A DNA stretch of 33,335 nt. It comes from Bacteroidota bacterium. GTDB lineage: Bacteria; Bacteroidota; Ignavibacteria; SZUA-365. A model generated the notes under the pieces. That model was not told the DNA's origin and ran no database searches. It worked only from the letters and a program-made list of their open reading frames with translations. This document shows positions 6,905 to 18,689 of the stretch, one piece after another. Where the stretch lies: assembly GCA_003246455.1 (NCBI GenBank), contig QKAF01000124.1, forward strand, positions 1 to 33,335. Direction: 5' to 3'. How positions within the stretch are numbered: position 1 is the first letter of the stretch; each line of letters begins with the position of its first letter. Made by a program: the position numbers and the translations under genes.

Positions 6905-6932
6905 TCACTTCCGACACACGTGAAGGGAAAGA

Positions 6933-6960
6933 GAGCGGCCCCGACAGGCCGCTCTTTCTT
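6933..6960 (+). terminator. Intrinsic terminator
   Basis: An 8-bp stem (6933-6940 GAGCGGCC with 6947-6954 GGCCGCTC), a loop of CCGACA and a T-rich tail at 6955-6960. It lies 28 bases after the thioredoxin-like gene and ends the mrp-nfu-nadK transcript. Confidence 0.8.
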
Positions 6961-7027
6961 GTGTTTGTACGCCGTCCTGCGTAACTTCAACGAATACGTC
7001 CGAGAGACGCCATTCCTCAACAGAGCC

Positions 7028-7055
7028 TGTACAAGATTATCCCAATCGTTATCAT
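7028..7055 (+). promoter_or_regulatory. Candidate sigma70-type promoter for the OPT transporter
   Basis: TGTACA (7028-7033) and TATCAT (7050-7055) are 16 bases apart, in the AT-richer stretch between the terminator and the OPT gene. The -10 matches consensus at five of six bases, the -35 at four of six. This was found by eye only. Confidence 0.35.
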
Positions 7056-7087
7056 ATCATCAACGTTTCTTTACTCAGGAGAATTGT

Positions 7088-9175
7088 ATGGCTGAGACGA
7101 AACACGTTCCGTTTGTCCCTGCGGACACGGATATGAAGGAGTTTACCCTTCGCGCGTTGCTCATCGGTCTCGTTCTCGCTGTCGTGCTGGGTGCGGCGAA
7201 CGCATACCTTGGCCTCAAGGCCGGTATGACCATCGCTGCAACCTATCCGGCTGCGGTTATCGGCATGGCGCTTCTCAAGGCCATGAAGGGAACGATTCTG
7301 GAAGAAAACATCGCGCGTACCGTCGGCTCCATCGGTGAATCTGTTGCAGCAGGCGCAATCTTTACGCTGCCCGCCTTCTTCATCGCCGGCATATGGCCGG
7401 AGTTTTTTACGACCTCGAACTACATTACCTCCACACTCATCCTGATTTCCGGTGGTGTGCTCGGTATCATGTTCGTGGCTCTTCTCCGTCGCGTCATGGT
7501 CGAAGATCCGGAACTTCCGTATCCGGAATCTGTCGCCGCGGCGGAAATTCACAAAGCAGGACGCGGTGGCGGCGGCGGTTCGAAGTACCTCTTCGGCGCC
7601 ATGCTCGGCGGCGGACTCGTCAAGGCACTCGGAGATTTCAAGCTCTTCATGCCGCTGTGGGAACGCTTCATCAGCTTCTCGAAAACCACGATCACCGGTA
7701 TGGAAAAAGTACCCCTCGCCTCCGGATCGGAAGGCGTCGCGGGAACCGGCGGCATGGTGCTCACTTCCTTCAAAATCAGCCCTGCGTACGTGGGCGTCGG
7801 GTACATTATCGGCCCGAAACTCGCGTCGCTGAACTTCTCGGGCGGCATCATTGCGTGGGGACTACTCACGCCGATCATCCTCTATTTCATCGCACCGTAT
7901 CTCAACATCGAAGCGATGGTGTCGGCCATCATGTCCGCGGACCCGGGCATGACGCACGCCGGTGCGACTGAAAAGGCCTGGATCGATTCCGCCTACCAGG
8001 TTTGGAAGTTCATCGTCCGTCCGATCGCCATCGGCGGAATGCTTGTCGGCGCCGGCTTTACGCTGTTCAAAATGCGCAACAGCCTCACGGCAGGTATCGC
8101 ACGCTCCATCAGCGATGTGAAGAAAGCGGCGTCGGGACATGTCGTCGATATCGAGCGCACGGAGAAGGACATTCCTTTCACGTGGACGCTCACCGGTATC
8201 TTCGGCGTCGCCGTCGCAACCTTCCTTATCACGTTCTACCTGTTCAACACGACCTTCCTCGTTGCCTTCGTGGCGGCGACGGTCATGATCGTGCTTGCAT
8301 TCTTCTTCGCTGCGGTCTCCGGTTACCTTGTCGGTATCATGGGATCGAGCAACAACCCGATCAGCGGTCTCACGCTCACGGCGCTTGTTGTCACCGCGCT
8401 TATCATGGTCGTTCTCGGCGTGGAAGAAGCCCATGGCGTCGCCTCGGTTCTCGGCGTCGCGGCAATCGTCTGCGTCGCAGCCGCGGTCGCGGGTGAAATG
8501 CTTCAGGATCTCAAGGCGGGACACATTCTCGGCGGTACGCCGTGGAAAATGCAGGTCGGTGATGTCATCGGCGTCGTTCTCGCCGGCTTTGTGATGTTCG
8601 GTGTGCTGGTGTTCCTCAACAACGGCGACATCGCCAACGGTATCCGCGAAGGATACACCGGCGGTTTCGGCAGCCGCGAACTCTCGGCGCCGCAGGCCAG
8701 TCTCATGGCCATCCTTTCCCGCGGTATCGTGGAACAGCAGATGGCGTGGCCCCTGATCATCGTCGGTATGCTCATGGGCGTATCCTTCATCCTCATGCAG
8801 GTGAAGAGCCCGATGCTCGTCAGCGTCGGTATGTACCTGCCGCTGGAAACCACCTTCGCGATCTTTATCGGTGGTCTCATGAAAGGCATGGTCGATCTCT
8901 ACAAAGCGAAGAGAAAGGTCAACGCCGCTCAGGAAGCCCGGATCGAGAACACAGGTGTGCTTCTCGCCTCCGGACTCATCGCGGGCGAGGCGCTCGTGGG
9001 TCTCATCTTCGCGGGCTTCGCGGCCTTCGAGATGTTCCCGGGTGCGATCTTCGAAAATCCGTCGTTCATCGCCGGACTCGTGGTGATGGGTCTCATCGGC
9101 TGGGTGCTCGTGCGCGTGCCGATGAACAACGCAGGCAGTCCTGACGAACCCGCACCGCCTTCCGCGGCGCACTAA
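7088..9175 (+). CDS. OPT-family oligopeptide transporter
   Basis: A 695-residue integral membrane protein with about 15 hydrophobic segments. The first cytoplasmic/membrane region, EFTLRALLIGLVLAVVLGAA then YLGLKAGMTIAATYPAA, and the following GSIGESVAAGAIFTLPAFF are hallmarks of the bacterial OPT family. Family members import di- to tetrapeptides or metal-peptide chelates by proton symport. The substrate here is not determinable. SD AGGAG at 7077-7081, six bases before this ATG, sets the start. An in-frame upstream start would run back through the terminator hairpin and has no conserved residues. The gene is flanked by terminators on both sides and is probably transcribed alone. Confidence 0.93.
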   Translation: MAETKHVPFVPADTDMKEFTLRALLIGLVLAVVLGAANAYLGLKAGMTIAATYPAAVIGMALLKAMKGTILEENIARTVGSIGESVAAGAIFTLPAFFIAGIWPEFFTTSNYITSTLILISGGVLGIMFVALLRRVMVEDPELPYPESVAAAEIHKAGRGGGGGSKYLFGAMLGGGLVKALGDFKLFMPLWERFISFSKTTITGMEKVPLASGSEGVAGTGGMVLTSFKISPAYVGVGYIIGPKLASLNFSGGIIAWGLLTPIILYFIAPYLNIEAMVSAIMSADPGMTHAGATEKAWIDSAYQVWKFIVRPIAIGGMLVGAGFTLFKMRNSLTAGIARSISDVKKAASGHVVDIERTEKDIPFTWTLTGIFGVAVATFLITFYLFNTTFLVAFVAATVMIVLAFFFAAVSGYLVGIMGSSNNPISGLTLTALVVTALIMVVLGVEEAHGVASVLGVAAIVCVAAAVAGEMLQDLKAGHILGGTPWKMQVGDVIGVVLAGFVMFGVLVFLNNGDIANGIREGYTGGFGSRELSAPQASLMAILSRGIVEQQMAWPLIIVGMLMGVSFILMQVKSPMLVSVGMYLPLETTFAIFIGGLMKGMVDLYKAKRKVNAAQEARIENTGVLLASGLIAGEALVGLIFAGFAAFEMFPGAIFENPSFIAGLVVMGLIGWVLVRVPMNNAGSPDEPAPPSAAH

Positions 9176-9197
9176 TCGTTCCTGATTTCAGGATGCT

Positions 9198-9234
9198 GAA
9201 GAATCTCCCGGCTATCCGGGAGATTCTTCGTTTT
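9198..9234 (+). terminator. Strong intrinsic terminator after the OPT gene
   Basis: A 13-bp perfect stem (9198-9210 GAAGAATCTCCCG with 9217-9229) with a six-base loop and TTTT at 9231-9234. Confidence 0.88.
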
Positions 9235-9305
9235 ATCCGCTGCGCGCATTAGTTTTCTGCATACACGTGCCCGGCACGACACCCTTCAACCGTTCCAGGA
9301 TTTCA

Positions 9306-9686
9306 ATGTTCGGAAAGAAAAAAGAAACAGAGGCAGTGAATCTCCTCGAACTCGTGCCGAAGCGTATCCGCGAATACAACACCGATGAAAACGGTGTCGT
9401 GACGGTGATGATGCCCCGGTTCGAGCATGACTGGATGATGCGGCATCTCGTCCCCAGATGGAAAAATCCCTATGTACGAACCCGTCTGGACGATGTCGGC
9501 TCATTCGTCTGGCTTCAATGCGACGGGGAAACGGCCGTGTCTGTCATCGCGGAGCGTATGCGCGATCAGTTCGGAGAGGCCGTGGAGCCGGTGCACGACC
9601 GGTTGAAGGTGTTCCTCCAGCAGCTGTCACGCCGCACCTGGCTGACGCTGCACCACTCCGACGGCAGGGAGGTCTTCAAGGATTGA
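9306..9686 (+). CDS. PqqD-family small protein
   Basis: A 126-residue protein of the PqqD-like winged-helix family. The diagnostic stretch is LDDVGSFVWLQCDGE (about 61-75), followed by a helical segment AERMRDQFGEAVEPVHDRL and a final LKVFLQQLSRRTWLTL. PqqD itself is a peptide-binding chaperone for a radical SAM enzyme. This stand-alone version, starting MFGKKK, is a form seen widely in Bacteroidota-like genomes, and its partner is not known to me. SD AGGA at 9297-9300 fixes the start at 9306; the longer form from 9267 is not supported. There is no precursor peptide or PQQ gene next to it. The nearest radical SAM/SPASM gene is 15 kb away on the other strand. Confidence 0.8.
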   Translation: MFGKKKETEAVNLLELVPKRIREYNTDENGVVTVMMPRFEHDWMMRHLVPRWKNPYVRTRLDDVGSFVWLQCDGETAVSVIAERMRDQFGEAVEPVHDRLKVFLQQLSRRTWLTLHHSDGREVFKD

Positions 9687-9739: not shown

Positions 9740-9769
9740 TGTAGGGGCGCAGCATGCTGCGCCCCTACA
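9740..9769. repeat. Perfect 30-bp palindrome with GTAGGGGCGC core
   Basis: Bases 9740-9754 are exactly repeated in reverse complement at 9755-9769, with no spacer. The arms start TGTAGGGGCGC and meet at an AGCATGCT centre. Palindromes with GTAGGGGC outer arms occur as scattered high-copy repeats in many bacterial genomes (from memory), and this looks like one copy of such a family. It lies between the convergent PqqD-family and MFS genes, where it could also stop transcription from both sides. The rest of 9687-9830 shows nothing. Confidence 0.75.
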
Positions 9770-13059: not shown

Positions 13060-13200
13060 AGATGACGAAAGCGAAGGGAGGGGACACCAGGATGCGGTCG
13101 AACGGAACAGGAGGAAGCGGGGAGAGAAGGAACGGAATGACGGGGAGGGAGGAAGAACGCGAGGAAGGGAGCGGGGAGGATTTCAGGCGGGGAGGTATTT
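13060..13200. other. Strand-biased purine tract between kinase and phosphatase genes
   Basis: On the + strand about 140 bases consist largely of G and A, with recurring short blocks such as GGGGAGG, GGAGGAAG and GAGAAGGAACGG. The - strand transcript would thus carry a long C/U-rich stretch. It covers the last codons of the RsbW-like gene and most of the gap before the SpoIIE gene. No ORF, hairpin or clean tandem unit explains it. It could be a leader, a site for a single-strand-binding protein, or neutral drift. Confidence 0.45.
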
Positions 13201-13635
13201 AATCAGGCGGATCGTGTTTCGATCACCGACGGACGGTCCGTATTCCACTTCATCCATCAGCTTCTTCATGAGGACGATGCCGAGGCCGCCGTGACGGAGT
13301 TTTTTGAAGTACTCGGTCATATCCGGTGCGGAGTACTTGCTGCTGTCGAACGAAATGCCGCTGTCATGGATTTCGACGACGAATTTCCGGTTGTGATCGG
13401 GGCCGGGCTGCATGCTGAGTCGGATTTCGATGATGCCATCCGGATTGTAGCGATAAGCGTGCTTGATGATGTTCGTGCAGGCTTCATCAATCGCGAGTTC
13501 GATCTTTCCGACATCCCCCTCGCCGAATCCGTACTGCCGCGCCGCGTCGGAAACGAATGTCCTCATGTCTGCCAGAAGCTCTGTTCTGCTCTGGATCTGA
13601 AGGATCTGTGTGGTATGTGGTGTGTTCGCTGCCAA
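13183..13635 (-). CDS. RsbW-type serine kinase / anti-sigma-like ATPase
   Basis: A 150-residue single-domain GHKL ATPase. It has the N box IELAIDEACTNIIKHAYR, G1 VVEIHDSGISFD and G2 HGGLGIVLMKKLMDEVEY. There is no dimerisation/histidine domain, so it belongs with RsbW/SpoIIAB, which phosphorylate a STAS antagonist on serine and sequester a sigma factor or other target. The gene begins at a TTG (13633-13635); an in-frame stop lies two codons upstream, so no earlier start exists. It lies between the STAS gene (40 bases upstream) and the cytoplasmic SpoIIE gene (166 bases downstream). The partner that it controls is not in the window. Confidence 0.9.
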   Translation of the reverse strand: MAANTPHTTQILQIQSRTELLADMRTFVSDAARQYGFGEGDVGKIELAIDEACTNIIKHAYRYNPDGIIEIRLSMQPGPDHNRKFVVEIHDSGISFDSSKYSAPDMTEYFKKLRHGGLGIVLMKKLMDEVEYGPSVGDRNTIRLIKYLPA

Positions 13636-13675
13636 GGGTTACCGTGGTGATATCACTTCTTTCCCACCGAACTGT

Positions 13676-14041
13676 TTACGAAGGATTTTCGGATTTGTTC
13701 AGGAATTTGCCGACGGCTTCCTCTTCATCCTTGAATATTTCGTACAGCATCGGAAAGCCGAGAAGATCGAACACGTTGTATACCCTCGTGGACATGTTGC
13801 TCAACTTGATATCCCCATCGTTTTTCCGGACATCCTCGATGAACTGCATCAGCACACCGAGGCCTGCGCTGCTGATGTAGGAGAGGTCGCTGAAATTGAC
13901 AACAATATTATACCGTGCCTCATTCAGATGCTTCTGGAAGGCCTTTTCCAGCTCTGGAGCAGTATGGGCGTCGAGATAGCCCTTCAGCTCCAGGATGGAC
14001 ACAGTATCCTGTTGTCGGATACCTACCGAGAATTCACTCAT
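13676..14041 (-). CDS. STAS-domain anti-sigma factor antagonist (RsbV/SpoIIAA type)
   Basis: A 121-residue single STAS domain. Aligned with SpoIIAA, the segment SDLSYISSAGLGVLMQF places the phosphorylatable serine at S58, the same position as in B. subtilis SpoIIAA. The opening ELKGYLDAHTAPELEKAF is also typical. When unphosphorylated it should bind the RsbW-type kinase encoded next. SD GAGGAG (14048-14053, complement) lies six bases before the ATG. The gene lies between the membrane-bound phosphatase (58 bases upstream) and the kinase, all on one strand, so the whole module is likely co-expressed. Confidence 0.93.
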   Translation of the reverse strand: MSEFSVGIRQQDTVSILELKGYLDAHTAPELEKAFQKHLNEARYNIVVNFSDLSYISSAGLGVLMQFIEDVRKNDGDIKLSNMSTRVYNVFDLLGFPMLYEIFKDEEEAVGKFLNKSENPS

Positions 14042-14099
14042 ACCTGGCTCCTCAATTCCGGATTATTCGCTTATCAAATTAATCGATTCTGAATGACAA

Positions 14100-16223
14100 T
14101 CAAACTCCGCCGATCCAGCGAAGGACCAGAACGGTGATATCGTCCTCGGCGTCCTCTCTCTCGCTGTGGTCACGGACGTCGTCGAGGATGGCATGCAGGA
14201 TCTCATCCGCGGGCCGCATCGCGTTGCGTGCCACCGTCTCGGCCAGGCGGCGGTACTGGAATTCCTCGTCCTGCTGGTTCCGGGCTTCCGTCACGCCGTC
14301 GGTATACATGACGATGACGTCGTCGGCGTCGAGCTGAATGGATTCCTCCTGCAGCGAATTCGCGAAACGCTCGGTCGCATCGAGTCCCAGCGCCATTCCT
14401 TCCGGCTGGAGATACCGTGCTTCGCCTGCATGGACATGCAGGAGGGGACAATGCCCCGCGCGCGAGAACGAAAGCCGGCCGCTGCCCGTGTTCAGAACCG
14501 CGTACAGCAGGCTGATGAAGGACTTTCGCTCCATGCTGTTGCACAGCGGTCCGTTCATCTTCACGAGGATGTCGCGCGTCGTGGCGCCGTTTCCGCTGAG
14601 CGACTGGAAGATTCCCTTCACCTGGGCCATGTACAGCGCCGCGGAGACTCCTTTCCCGGATACATCCCCGACGACGAAGCCCAGATGCGTCTCATCGAAA
14701 GGAAGCACGTCGTAATAGTCGCCGCCGACTTCGTATGCGGGAATGGACCGTGCGGCGATCTCGAAATGCGGAGAGGACGGCAGAATCTGCGGCAGCAGAC
14801 TGCGCTGCATCTGCTGGGCGACGATCAGCTCCTGCTCCATGCGTTCCTTGACGATGGATTCCCGGATGAGCGTGCTGTTTTCTATTGCAACAGAAACCAT
14901 GTCGGCAAAGGCGGTAAGGACGAGCACGGCGTCCTTGTCGAACGCATAGGCCTCCTTTTTGGTCACGCACAGCAGTCCGATGATCTCCCCATGACTGCTC
15001 AGGGGAACCATGACAAGAGTTCCGATCCCCTTGAAACTGCGCGTGGAAACGCTGAGCCGGCGGTCGGCCGCAAAATCCTGTATGAGCACCGGGCGCCCGG
15101 CTTCCAGCGCGAGCTGCTCGAAGGCCGCGCCGTCCGAGGTCTGCATGCGTGCGATCTCATCTGCCGTGATGTTTTTCAGCGAGTTGCGGACGATTCGAAA
15201 ATCAGCGGCGTCGCTTTCCTCGCGGCGGGATTTCCCGTTCGACGGCATCAGTTCGAGCCACGCGGCGTGTCCTTCGCTCACCTCGAGCGCGAGATGCGTG
15301 GTCGTGGCCATCAGTTCGTCGAAGTCGAATACCTGGGTAATGAGCCGACTGAGATTCTGGAGCGTGGAGATCTCCATTTTCTTCCGGTCGAACTCCTTCG
15401 CAGTCGGGAGATGCAGAAGCGTACTGGCGAAACCGATACCCATGTATGCCGTACCGAAGTGGAAGGAGAGAGTCACGAAGGCATACAGCATGGGATGATA
15501 GGCCCGGAGTCCGTCGTGCAGGGCCTCGCCGCCGCTGGCGTAGATGGCCAGGATGATGAAAAACACGAAGCCGAACAGGGAGAGGAGCAGGTTCAGGAGT
15601 TTTTCGCGCCGCGTCAGTACGAGTATCCAGGAGAAATGGAAGGCATTGACGAGTATGCCCGCGAAGGTGAGTCCGTATGCGATCACGGCGAGCGTCTCAA
15701 GGGATTTCAGCCCGAAGCCGTTCGGACTGGCAAGGAATTCCAGGAGAATGTAGGAAGCCGATGTCGCGACCAGGAAAATGAAATTCCGTCGCGTATTTTT
15801 CCGCCGCTTGATAAACACCAGTCGCGCGAGAGAAACGAACACGACCACGGCGCTCAATCCGCCCGTCGTGGCGATGATCATTGTCGTGACGAGGACAGAG
15901 AACGAGTCGGGCGCGACGAGTCCGTTGCGGGAGGTGAACTGGGTCGATACGGAGAGCTGAATAATCCCGAGAAGGAGCAGGAAGACCGTCGCGGCAATGA
16001 CCGTTCGGCCTATCAGCTGCATCGGCTGCTGCTCGTCGCTTTCCGAGGCACGCGTATAGTACAGCCCCGCGCCGCCGAAGGCGACGAGCATGAGGAGCGT
16101 GTGGAAGAGGTCCCCTTCAAGTGCGCCCGAAGTATTCAACGCCCGCTGGATGAAGACATACACAAAATCCAGCAGAAAGCCGGAAGCCGCGACGATGAAC
16201 AGTATGCGCTGGCGTAAATTCAT
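14100..16223 (-). CDS. Membrane-bound GAF-SpoIIE (PP2C) serine phosphatase
   Basis: A 707-residue protein. The first 260 residues hold about eight hydrophobic segments (for example NLRQRILFIVAASGFLLDFV and LLSLFGFVFFIILAIYASGG), resembling a 7TM-type sensory region. A GAF domain follows at about 280-450 (STLQNLSRLITQVFDFDELM). A short helix (MEQELIVAQQMQRSLLP) then leads to the PP2C domain at about 465-705, with VGGDYYDVLPFD, VVGDVSGKGVSAALYM, MYTDGVTEA and EDDITVLVLRW. It should dephosphorylate the STAS antagonist encoded directly downstream, giving the switch a membrane input besides the cytoplasmic one. The ATG at 16223 is preferred over a TTG at 16247. No good SD is visible for either. 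Confidence 0.9.
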   Translation of the reverse strand: MNLRQRILFIVAASGFLLDFVYVFIQRALNTSGALEGDLFHTLLMLVAFGGAGLYYTRASESDEQQPMQLIGRTVIAATVFLLLLGIIQLSVSTQFTSRNGLVAPDSFSVLVTTMIIATTGGLSAVVVFVSLARLVFIKRRKNTRRNFIFLVATSASYILLEFLASPNGFGLKSLETLAVIAYGLTFAGILVNAFHFSWILVLTRREKLLNLLLSLFGFVFFIILAIYASGGEALHDGLRAYHPMLYAFVTLSFHFGTAYMGIGFASTLLHLPTAKEFDRKKMEISTLQNLSRLITQVFDFDELMATTTHLALEVSEGHAAWLELMPSNGKSRREESDAADFRIVRNSLKNITADEIARMQTSDGAAFEQLALEAGRPVLIQDFAADRRLSVSTRSFKGIGTLVMVPLSSHGEIIGLLCVTKKEAYAFDKDAVLVLTAFADMVSVAIENSTLIRESIVKERMEQELIVAQQMQRSLLPQILPSSPHFEIAARSIPAYEVGGDYYDVLPFDETHLGFVVGDVSGKGVSAALYMAQVKGIFQSLSGNGATTRDILVKMNGPLCNSMERKSFISLLYAVLNTGSGRLSFSRAGHCPLLHVHAGEARYLQPEGMALGLDATERFANSLQEESIQLDADDVIVMYTDGVTEARNQQDEEFQYRRLAETVARNAMRPADEILHAILDDVRDHSEREDAEDDITVLVLRWIGGV

Positions 16224-16411: not shown

Positions 16412-17446
16412 GTGACACGCCCTCTGCTCGAAGTCGAAAATCTCAGAAAACTCTTCCCGGTGCGCGGCGGAATGCTGCGGACCTCGCTGCAGCATGTGCA
16501 TGCGGTGGATGGTGTGAGTTTTCACATCCGGAAGGGGGAAGTGCTCGGTCTGGTCGGGGAATCGGGGTGCGGCAAAAGCACCCTGGGACGCGTTCTGCTC
16601 CAGCTGCTTCCCGCAACCGCGGGGAAGGTGATCTTCCAGGACGAGGATATCACTCGCATCAGCAAATCGGATCTTCGCAAGCTGCGGAAGGAAATGCAGA
16701 TGGTGTTTCAGGATCCCTATTCCTCGCTCAATCCGCGCCTGACCGTGGGATCCGCGCTGCGCGAGGTGCTGATGGTGCATAACATCGTTCCGCGTGCGCA
16801 GCTGGCCGAACGCATCAGCAGCCTGCTTCGGATGGTGGGACTCAACGATTTTCATGCGCGAAGATATCCCCATGAATTCAGCAGCGGCCAGCGGCAGCGT
16901 ATCGGCATTGCCCGCGCGCTTGCAGTGGAACCGCAGTTCCTGGTATGCGACGAGCCCGTCTCGGCGCTTGACGTCTCGATCCAGGCGCAGATCCTGAATC
17001 TGCTCGCGGACCTGCGCGAAGCACTCGACCTGACCTACCTGTTCATCTCGCACGATCTGACTGTCGTCCGCCACATCTCCGACCGCATCGCTGTGATGTA
17101 TCTCGGTCGACTGGTCGAACTCGGTTCGGTGGAGGAAGTCATCCGTGCGCCGCGGCATCCGTACACCCGGGCGCTGCTCGAATCCGCTCCCGTGGCGGAC
17201 CCGGATCGCGTGCGAAATCGACCGCCGCTGTTCTCCGATGTTCCGAGCCCGGTGAACATACCCAAGGGCTGTGCGTTTCATACGCGATGTTCCGAGGTAT
17301 TCGCCGACTGCCGGCACGTCGTGCCGAAGATGGGCGCCGATTCTCGAGGCTCCCTGGTCAGCTGCCTGAAATACCCGGAGTCCTGGCCCGCTGCTCCACC
17401 CGAAAAACTGAAAGAAGCCTCGACGGATGAATACAGCAATGGATGA
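16412..17446 (+). CDS. OppF/DppF-like peptide ABC transporter ATPase
   Basis: A 344-residue ATPase of the peptide/nickel importer class, which energises uptake through two membrane permeases. It shows Walker A GESGCGKST at about 49-57, the Q-loop region MVFQDPYSSLNPR, Walker B FLVCDEPVSALDVS and switch histidine FISHDLTVV. The C-terminal oligo_HPY region ends in GCAFHTRC, typical of OppF/DppF. The signature reads FSSGQRQR, where FSGGQRQR is usual, so the first glycine is serine. The GTG at 16412 begins the conserved sequence; upstream in-frame residues look untranslated. No OppD, permease or binding protein gene is nearby, so the partners must be elsewhere. The 188-base divergent gap to the membrane phosphatase should hold both promoters. 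Confidence 0.9.
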   Translation: MTRPLLEVENLRKLFPVRGGMLRTSLQHVHAVDGVSFHIRKGEVLGLVGESGCGKSTLGRVLLQLLPATAGKVIFQDEDITRISKSDLRKLRKEMQMVFQDPYSSLNPRLTVGSALREVLMVHNIVPRAQLAERISSLLRMVGLNDFHARRYPHEFSSGQRQRIGIARALAVEPQFLVCDEPVSALDVSIQAQILNLLADLREALDLTYLFISHDLTVVRHISDRIAVMYLGRLVELGSVEEVIRAPRHPYTRALLESAPVADPDRVRNRPPLFSDVPSPVNIPKGCAFHTRCSEVFADCRHVVPKMGADSRGSLVSCLKYPESWPAAPPEKLKEASTDEYSNG

Positions 17447-18689
17447 CATTTTCAACTCTCTCAGCGAACCCATTCCCCAGCTCCGGCAGGACCTCGAGCT
17501 TCTGCCGATCCAGGAGGATGGAGAGGAACTGCTTGTATTGCGCGATCCGTCCGGCTACTCGGACGAAATGCTGGTTTTTCGTCCTGCCGCCCTGGCGCTG
17601 CTGCAGTTTTTCGACGGTCGAAAGAGCATCAACAGCCTGATGGATGAAATTCAGGCGGAGACCGGTGTTCGCATCGACGGAGCGCAGGTGCTCGATATCG
17701 TCCAGTCACTCGACCGTTACTACTTTCTCTCCAACACACGGAGCCAGGTACGACAGGAGGAAATCGACGCTGCCTGGCAGCGGCAGGAAACGCGTCCCGC
17801 TGTCCATGCCGGCGTATCCTATCCCGATGAACCCGAGGCATTGTCGGATTTCATGCATGAACTGTTCGATGCCGACAGCGGAGACTCCGACGGGAAGTCG
17901 CTCCTCGGGGTCATCACCCCCCATATCGATCTGCAGATCGGACCGCAGGTATACGTCCCGGCATTCCGCCGGCTGGAGCAGCAGGATGTCGATACCGTTG
18001 TGATCCTCGGCACGAGCCATTATTCCTACGAGGATCTGTTCATTCTCACTGAAAAGGATTTCGTGACGCCGCTCGGCACGATGCCGACGGACCGTGAATT
18101 CGTGCGCATGCTGCGCAAGGAGAGCGGCGACCGCTTCACACATCGCGACGTCGCACATCGGCAGGAACATTCGATCGAATTCCCCGTGGTGTTTCTGCAG
18201 CATGTATTCGGCAACGCCCGTATCCGTGTCGTCCCGATTCTCTGCACGTCGTTCGAGGAGTTCCTGGTCGAGGGAACCCGGGCGTCCGCGGATGAAAAGT
18301 ATGATGCGTTTCAGAAGGCATTTCGTACAACCGTCGAAAAACTCGGGCGGAAAGTGACATTCGTGCTGAGCGTCGACTGGTCACATATCGGGAGGAAATT
18401 CGGGGACGATTACGATGCGGCGGATCGACTCGATGAAGTGCGTGCATCGGACCACGCGCAGTTCTCCGCACTCGAGGCGGGGGATTATGATGCATTCTTC
18501 CGGCTGCTCCGGGAGACCCGGAACGCATCGAAGATCGACGGCTTCGCATGCATCACCACGTTCTTCGACCTGGTGGCTCCGCGGCGCGGGGTACTGCTCG
18601 ATTATCAGCAATGGCATGAAGAGGAACGCGCATCCGCGGTATCATTCGCGAGCATGGCCTTCTATTCCGACACGGGAGAAGAATCATGA
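17427..18689 (+). CDS. Memo-family protein (AmmeMemoRadiSam protein B) with PqqD-like N-terminus
   Basis: A 420-residue protein. Residues about 150-415 are a Memo domain, related to class III dioxygenases, with candidate metal-site residues H166 (VITPHIDLQIGP), H198 (LGTSHYS), H244 and H248 (HRQEHSIEFP) and C375 (GFACITTFFDL). The enzymatic role of bacterial Memo is not settled. The first 110 residues are a separate domain with LLQFFDGRKSINSLMDEI and VLDIVQSLDRYYFL, which resembles a PqqD-like winged helix. The usual partners AMMECR1 and its radical SAM protein are not in the window. It overlaps the OppF gene by 20 bases and TatD by four (ATGA), indicating one operon. An ATG at 17439 is an alternative start. 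Confidence 0.87.
   Translation: MNTAMDDIFNSLSEPIPQLRQDLELLPIQEDGEELLVLRDPSGYSDEMLVFRPAALALLQFFDGRKSINSLMDEIQAETGVRIDGAQVLDIVQSLDRYYFLSNTRSQVRQEEIDAAWQRQETRPAVHAGVSYPDEPEALSDFMHELFDADSGDSDGKSLLGVITPHIDLQIGPQVYVPAFRRLEQQDVDTVVILGTSHYSYEDLFILTEKDFVTPLGTMPTDREFVRMLRKESGDRFTHRDVAHRQEHSIEFPVVFLQHVFGNARIRVVPILCTSFEEFLVEGTRASADEKYDAFQKAFRTTVEKLGRKVTFVLSVDWSHIGRKFGDDYDAADRLDEVRASDHAQFSALEAGDYDAFFRLLRETRNASKIDGFACITTFFDLVAPRRGVLLDYQQWHEEERASAVSFASMAFYSDTGEES

Follow-up and report, generated by a model that had tools for sequence, protein, structure and literature searches.

The four-gene partner-switch locus

The stretch of DNA analysed here, called the window, comprises 33,335 nucleotides of contig QKAF01000124.1 from a bacterium of the class Ignavibacteria. 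Its minus strand carries, in this order, the genes for PhosM, a STAS antagonist, a switch kinase, PhosS and an MFS transporter:

16223-14100 (from ATG), minus strand: PhosM, membrane sensor phosphatase with eight predicted transmembrane (TM) helices, a GAF domain, a long linker helix and a SpoIIE/PP2C domain
14041-13676, minus strand: STAS antagonist of the RsbV/SpoIIAA type, candidate phospho-acceptor Ser58 (PF01740, E=3e-20; TIGR00377)
13635-13183, minus strand: serine kinase of the RsbW/SpoIIAB type, the switch protein (PF13581, HATPase_c_2, E=3e-30)
13016-11250, minus strand: PhosS, soluble GAF-GAF-SpoIIE/PP2C phosphatase (GAF_3 in two stretches; SpoIIE 6e-48)
11174-9831, minus strand: MFS transporter (MFS_1, Pfam), after a 75-base gap downstream of PhosS
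9740-9769, minus strand: strong terminator-like hairpin, 13 pairs and a T tail, 3' of the MFS gene (consensus match only)

Pfam searches bear out the initial annotation, which had placed a membrane GAF-SpoIIE phosphatase, a STAS protein, a kinase and a soluble GAF-GAF-SpoIIE phosphatase at the first four of these positions. GAF and SpoIIE domains were recovered in PhosM (SpoIIE E=1e-48), and hydropathy revealed no TM segment in PhosS. The MFS gene is possibly co-transcribed with the switch genes, and the hairpin, judged from its sequence, is the likely end of the transcript. An Rfam search of the window gave no match.

Ser58, already proposed as the serine of the STAS protein, aligns with the phospho-serine of the RsbV and SpoIIAA structures in the PDB. 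It lies in the motif ISSAGLG, and the run from Y55 through ISSAG is identical in 41/41 sequences. The PP2C motifs GGDYYDV, DV(S/A)GKG, YTDG and DDIT are found in both PhosM and PhosS. In the kinase, the N-box (DEACTN) and G-boxes are conserved in the alignment and the ATP boxes are intact, in agreement with the earlier description of the catalytic motifs. PDB matches were RsbW (6m36, E=3e-13) and SpoIIAB for the kinase, RsbV and SpoIIAA for the STAS protein, and RssB, the RsbU domain of Rv1364c and SpoIIE phosphatase domains for the phosphatases, PhosS matching the Rv1364c RsbU domain and SpoIIE. The AlphaFold2 model of the kinase has the RsbW/SpoIIAB fold according to a fold search. The model of PhosM (28-row alignment; mean pLDDT 84.6, pTM 0.48) contains eight membrane-length helices, against six by hydropathy alone, and its best Foldseek matches are the phosphatase domains of RssB, SiaA, SpoIIE and RsbU. 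Among the curated NCBIfam models, only the superfamily-level TIGR00377 passes its cut-off with the STAS protein. The RsbW, SpoIIAB, SpoIIAA and SpoIIE equivalog models score far below their cut-offs for the window proteins, and by NCBI's criterion these are therefore not orthologous to their Bacillus counterparts. As read from the sequence, the genes nevertheless supply the parts that define an RsbUVW-type switch, namely a phospho-serine STAS protein, a switch kinase and a SpoIIE/PP2C phosphatase with metal-binding aspartates.

Two phosphatases on one antagonist are not new. In B. subtilis, RsbV is acted on by RsbU as well as by RsbP, and the sigma-B module resembles the window in combining two different PP2C phosphatases with a single pair of STAS antagonist and switch kinase (PMC7522486). 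In the window, both phosphatase genes flank the antagonist/kinase pair, whereas RsbP of B. subtilis is encoded apart, with RsbQ. Moreover, sigB, whose product contains region 3, is encoded alongside rsbVW in B. subtilis, whereas the genome of the window has no such sigma.

The gene order is old. PhosM-STAS-kinase-PhosS is kept in 30 of 40 loci of relatives, from 11 families of the class. Gene-order conservation was the check proposed with the initial annotation, and its proviso that the order might not be conserved falls away with these 11 families; its picture of a partner switch in which a membrane and a soluble phosphatase flank one antagonist/kinase pair stands. An adjacent PhosS is missing in two genera of the window's family and in f5, f8 and f16 loci, an f7 locus is without PhosM, and one of the 40 loci is interrupted by a contig end. 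The kinase query found a match in 52 of the 61 genomes searched, many of them weak; with the threshold set at E 1e-30, 201 of the 245 genomes of the class contain the kinase. The G221 kinase, which lies inside a long open frame, was taken as a case of spurious upstream frame extension. Outside the class, the order recurs in loci of f26, f29 and f34, and many other loci contain part of it. Homologue records come from Melioribacter, Stygiobacter and Ignavibacteria MAGs, and also from Balneolales and KSB1; the group belongs to the Ignavibacteria and their neighbours in the Bacteroidota/Chlorobiota group.

The two phosphatases might also serve different STAS proteins, forming two pathways side by side and not one integrator. 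The genome contains 10 SpoIIE phosphatases and 6 STAS domains, five of them besides the one described here, and some families have one phosphatase only beside the pair. Such a division is rather unlikely in view of the compact arrangement, in which the genes of most families overlap or lie only short gaps apart, and of the flanking of the pair by both phosphatases in three quarters of the loci. Elsewhere in the same genome, a SpoIIE phosphatase whose N-terminal part resembles a receiver is encoded near a second STAS protein (G000 C91:3272-3841 and C91:4946-5221), which, from their sequences, are a possible second partner-switch pair.

The transporter had been suggested as part of the response. 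Its co-oriented position downstream of the switch genes is confined to the window's genus and one genome of another genus, while several other genomes of the window's family have a more distant MFS gene there on the opposite strand. With linkage so limited, the MFS transporter was dismissed as a conserved output. Constant neighbour genes were likewise rejected as targets because the flanks vary by family, including leucyl-tRNA synthetase, MatE, a TPR protein, glycosyltransferases and purA.

Sigma factors in the genome

No sigma factor is encoded in the window. Across the genome, sigma-70 region 3 (PF04539) has a single match, the housekeeping sigma, and the genome-wide search found no sigB/sigF-group sigma with region 3 as a target. 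A target of the sigB, sigF or sigma28 type is therefore absent from this genome, which is 98% complete, and not merely unlinked. Relatives mostly have one region-3 sigma, some two or three. The initial statement that no sigma factor lies nearby is correct for the window, and for region 3 it extends to the whole genome except for the housekeeping sigma, but it does not extend to ECF sigmas: 20 genes contain Sigma70_r2, and the 19 besides the housekeeping gene are ECF-like by their size and lack of region 3. The accompanying suggestion that the output is not a linked sigma is likewise right for this locus, where none is linked, but some relatives carry an ECF sigma, a transcription switch of the envelope type, inside the same operon. 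A sigma encoded elsewhere is therefore the leading target.

Among the ECFs of the window's genome, the closest is encoded at G000 C128:191890-192498. It is followed, 4 bases on, by the gene of a protein of 566 residues that has an N-terminal region (~87 residues), a TM segment and an outer part. This outer part is homologous to the membrane protein found beside the ECF in the Melioribacteraceae, and the N-terminal region reads like an anti-sigma domain.

RsbW-type kinases are known to dock on sigmas that possess region 3, and ECFs are without region 3, which speaks against an ECF as the target. The kinase might hold back the housekeeping sigma, the sole region-3 sigma in this genome and in most relatives, and the switch would then tune general transcription. 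The precedent is the RsbU/V1/V2/W system of Chlamydia trachomatis, which resembles the window in having a membrane phosphatase and no sigB orthologue. It differs in that its reported target, supported by binding and in vivo data, is the housekeeping sigma66 and that no ECF is involved (PMC4552016). The housekeeping sigma is present in every genome, and as the target it appears improbable in the light of the ECF fusion and anti-sigma domain loss described below, both of which it leaves unexplained.

ECF genes joined to the operon in relatives

The comparison covered 101 ECF loci, of which 52 (eight families) are unlinked to the operon and 49 are linked (f11, taken to be the Melioribacteraceae, f21 and f23). 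In the Melioribacteraceae, PhosM is preceded by co-directional genes for the ECF and a membrane protein, separated by short gaps. In all three families the ECF is at the operon head on the same strand, and partner-switch genes lie downstream in 49/49 loci; in one of them, G463, only the start of a phosphatase lies within the stretch examined. Hydropathy and sequence reading showed that the ECF is followed in 52/52 unlinked loci by a protein with 75-112 residues before its first TM segment, although no anti-sigma motif was recognised in this protein in one of them, G004. The N-terminal cytoplasmic segment is kept in 18/18 linked loci of f21 (78-89 residues) and missing in 31/31 of f11 and f23. 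The membrane protein begins almost at its TM segment in 28 of the f11/f23 loci, and in G023, G472 and G059 its gene is absent and the ECF directly precedes PhosM.

In a tree of PhosM, STAS and kinase, f11, f21 and f23 group together as a clade (support 0.978). Within it, f21 is placed next to f11+f23, and the f11+f23 node has a support of only 0.28. The simplest history is that the two units were joined once, that the anti-sigma domain was lost in f11+f23 and that the whole protein was lost at least twice. This pattern of sequences suggests that the kinase may have taken over as anti-sigma in the linked families. Linkage and domain loss each represent one or two events, and the loci therefore provide few independent observations. 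An ECF without an anti-sigma could alternatively be controlled simply by transcription.

A locus combining partner-switch proteins with an ECF sigma is known from Bordetella, where BtrU, BtrV and BtrW are encoded together with BtrS. There, however, BtrA counteracts BtrS, and all three switch proteins are needed for secretion, none being negative (PMC7498569). In the f11 and f23 relatives, unlike Bordetella, no anti-sigma domain is left besides the kinase.

Further genes accompany the linked operons. Most loci of the linked families, e.g., L102:4073-6655, have at the operon end a third phosphatase of ~855 residues with TM, GAF and SpoIIE regions and a PDZ match below its cut-off. A second STAS family, marked by MNSSGLGML, is encoded divergently beside the ECF in linked families (L320, L321, L323, L330 and L331), and in f11 this STAS gene is followed by an adenylosuccinate synthetase gene. 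Two STAS proteins of the MNSSGLGML type are encoded elsewhere in the window's genome (L031, L035).

Motifs of the GGAAC-CGTC type are the kind that ECF sigmas use for self-activation. A promoter-like motif GGAAC-N15-18-CGTC was present upstream of the ECF in 94/101 loci. Because it precedes the ECF, it heads the whole operon in the linked families, as in a self-activating sigma operon, and the ECF would drive the entire operon in these lineages. Upstream of PhosM, the motif was found in 0/133 loci, with 0.56 expected from shuffling. Its absence there is expected in the linked loci, where PhosM is an internal gene of the operon. For lineages with an unlinked ECF, that of the window among them, it means that the ECF does not drive the operon via this motif, and ECF feedback on the window's operon was rejected on this result. 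One-mismatch matches across the window (34 vs 14 expected) were set aside because none lies within 350 bases upstream of PhosM on its strand and most are intragenic. The strict motif with CGTCTA has one and two matches in two Melioribacteraceae genomes, one of each being at the ECF, and 5 matches in the window's own genome vs 3 in the reversed control. Given these few strict matches, a wide ECF regulon was rejected.

Co-occurrence, other outputs and the proposed switch

An ECF orthologue (E of 1e-48 or better) is present in 97 of the 245 class genomes, all of them kinase-bearing. None of the 44 kinase-less genomes, those listed coming from few families, has one (Fisher p 1.4e-11, relatedness ignored). 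The ECF orthologue is absent from 104 of the 201 kinase-bearing class genomes, and the ECF is therefore not the sole or general target across the class. Either there are further targets or the connection with the ECF arose later.

These 104 genomes would also fit a target that is not a sigma factor, such as a diguanylate cyclase, another enzyme or a secretion component, as in SiaABCD and BtrUVW, or free STAS as the effector, as with RbaV. Outputs of this kind exist or have been proposed (PMC3999984, PMC7498569), and no constant neighbour gene is seen in most families. The RbaV/RbaW/RbaY system of Rhodobacter capsulatus is similar to the window in that no cognate sigma was found, ECFs and others having been tried in vain, and different in that it has one phosphatase only and is not reported to have an ECF fusion (PMC3999984). 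The Pseudomonas SiaABCD system shares with the window a membrane PP2C phosphatase, and the phosphatase domain of PhosM matches the SiaA fold. The output of SiaABCD is a diguanylate cyclase. Unlike in that system, no diguanylate cyclase is linked at the window's operon, nor was one linked in the families inspected. The window's genome has 2 GGDEF copies. A co-occurring diguanylate cyclase, as once envisaged for the window, finds no support, as GGDEF proteins do not track the operon; GGDEF beside the housekeeping sigma gene also occurs in kinase-less f12 and f16 genomes, for which reason this target was discarded. No non-sigma gene fused to the operon was seen in the families inspected, and a non-sigma output is on the whole unlikely.

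In the explanation favoured here, the kinase would bind a target protein and also phosphorylate the STAS protein on Ser58. PhosM, triggered via its 8-TM membrane module, and PhosS, triggered via its tandem GAF domains, would each remove the phosphate from STAS, and dephosphorylated STAS would then capture the kinase, so that the target would be freed. This target would most likely be the ECF sigma of one orthologous group, represented in the window's genome by the C128 gene. The sequences themselves show the proteins with their domains and motifs, the conserved gene order, the lack of any group-3 sigma, the stepwise ECF fusion in relatives and the co-occurrence. We infer kinase-ECF binding, the action of both phosphatases on this STAS protein and the transfer of the link to the window's lineage; the phosphorylation chemistry is predicted.

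An RsbUVW-type switch with an ECF sigma as its most likely target is held tentatively as a whole, at slightly less than an even chance. For the Melioribacteraceae, the ECF is probably the target. For the window's own genome, the same assignment is rather doubtful: the ECF of this lineage is encoded away from the operon, and its anti-sigma-like partner has retained the N-terminal region. As this anti-sigma is kept and the motif is absent before the operon, we only infer the ECF link in the window's lineage. It is possible, though open to some doubt, that an RsbW-type kinase acts as an ECF anti-sigma and replaced the membrane anti-sigma in the Melioribacteraceae and a sister family. The ECF would have joined an operon with two or three sensor phosphatases, after which the domain and sometimes the whole gene were lost, and the window's operon would represent the unlinked ancestral form.

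Several Gram-negative bacteria possess partner switches for which no target is recognisable, and finding the outputs has been difficult. The comparison names one candidate target and offers a natural series of loci along which a phosphorylation switch appears to have taken the place of a membrane anti-sigma. Were this true, RsbW-type control would reach the ECF class, although ECFs are without the sigma region on which the known RsbW relatives dock, and the series would illustrate how sigma control evolves from one type to another. A literature search with partial coverage turned up neither a description of an ECF as the target of an RsbW-type kinase nor a paper combining Ignavibacteria with partner switching.

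Other genes of the window were also noted. At 17427-18689, a Memo-like protein is encoded with ~120 residues ahead of the Memo domain. At 6920-9686, the gene of an OPT oligopeptide transporter precedes that of a standalone PqqD-like protein, and this pair is retained in several relatives.
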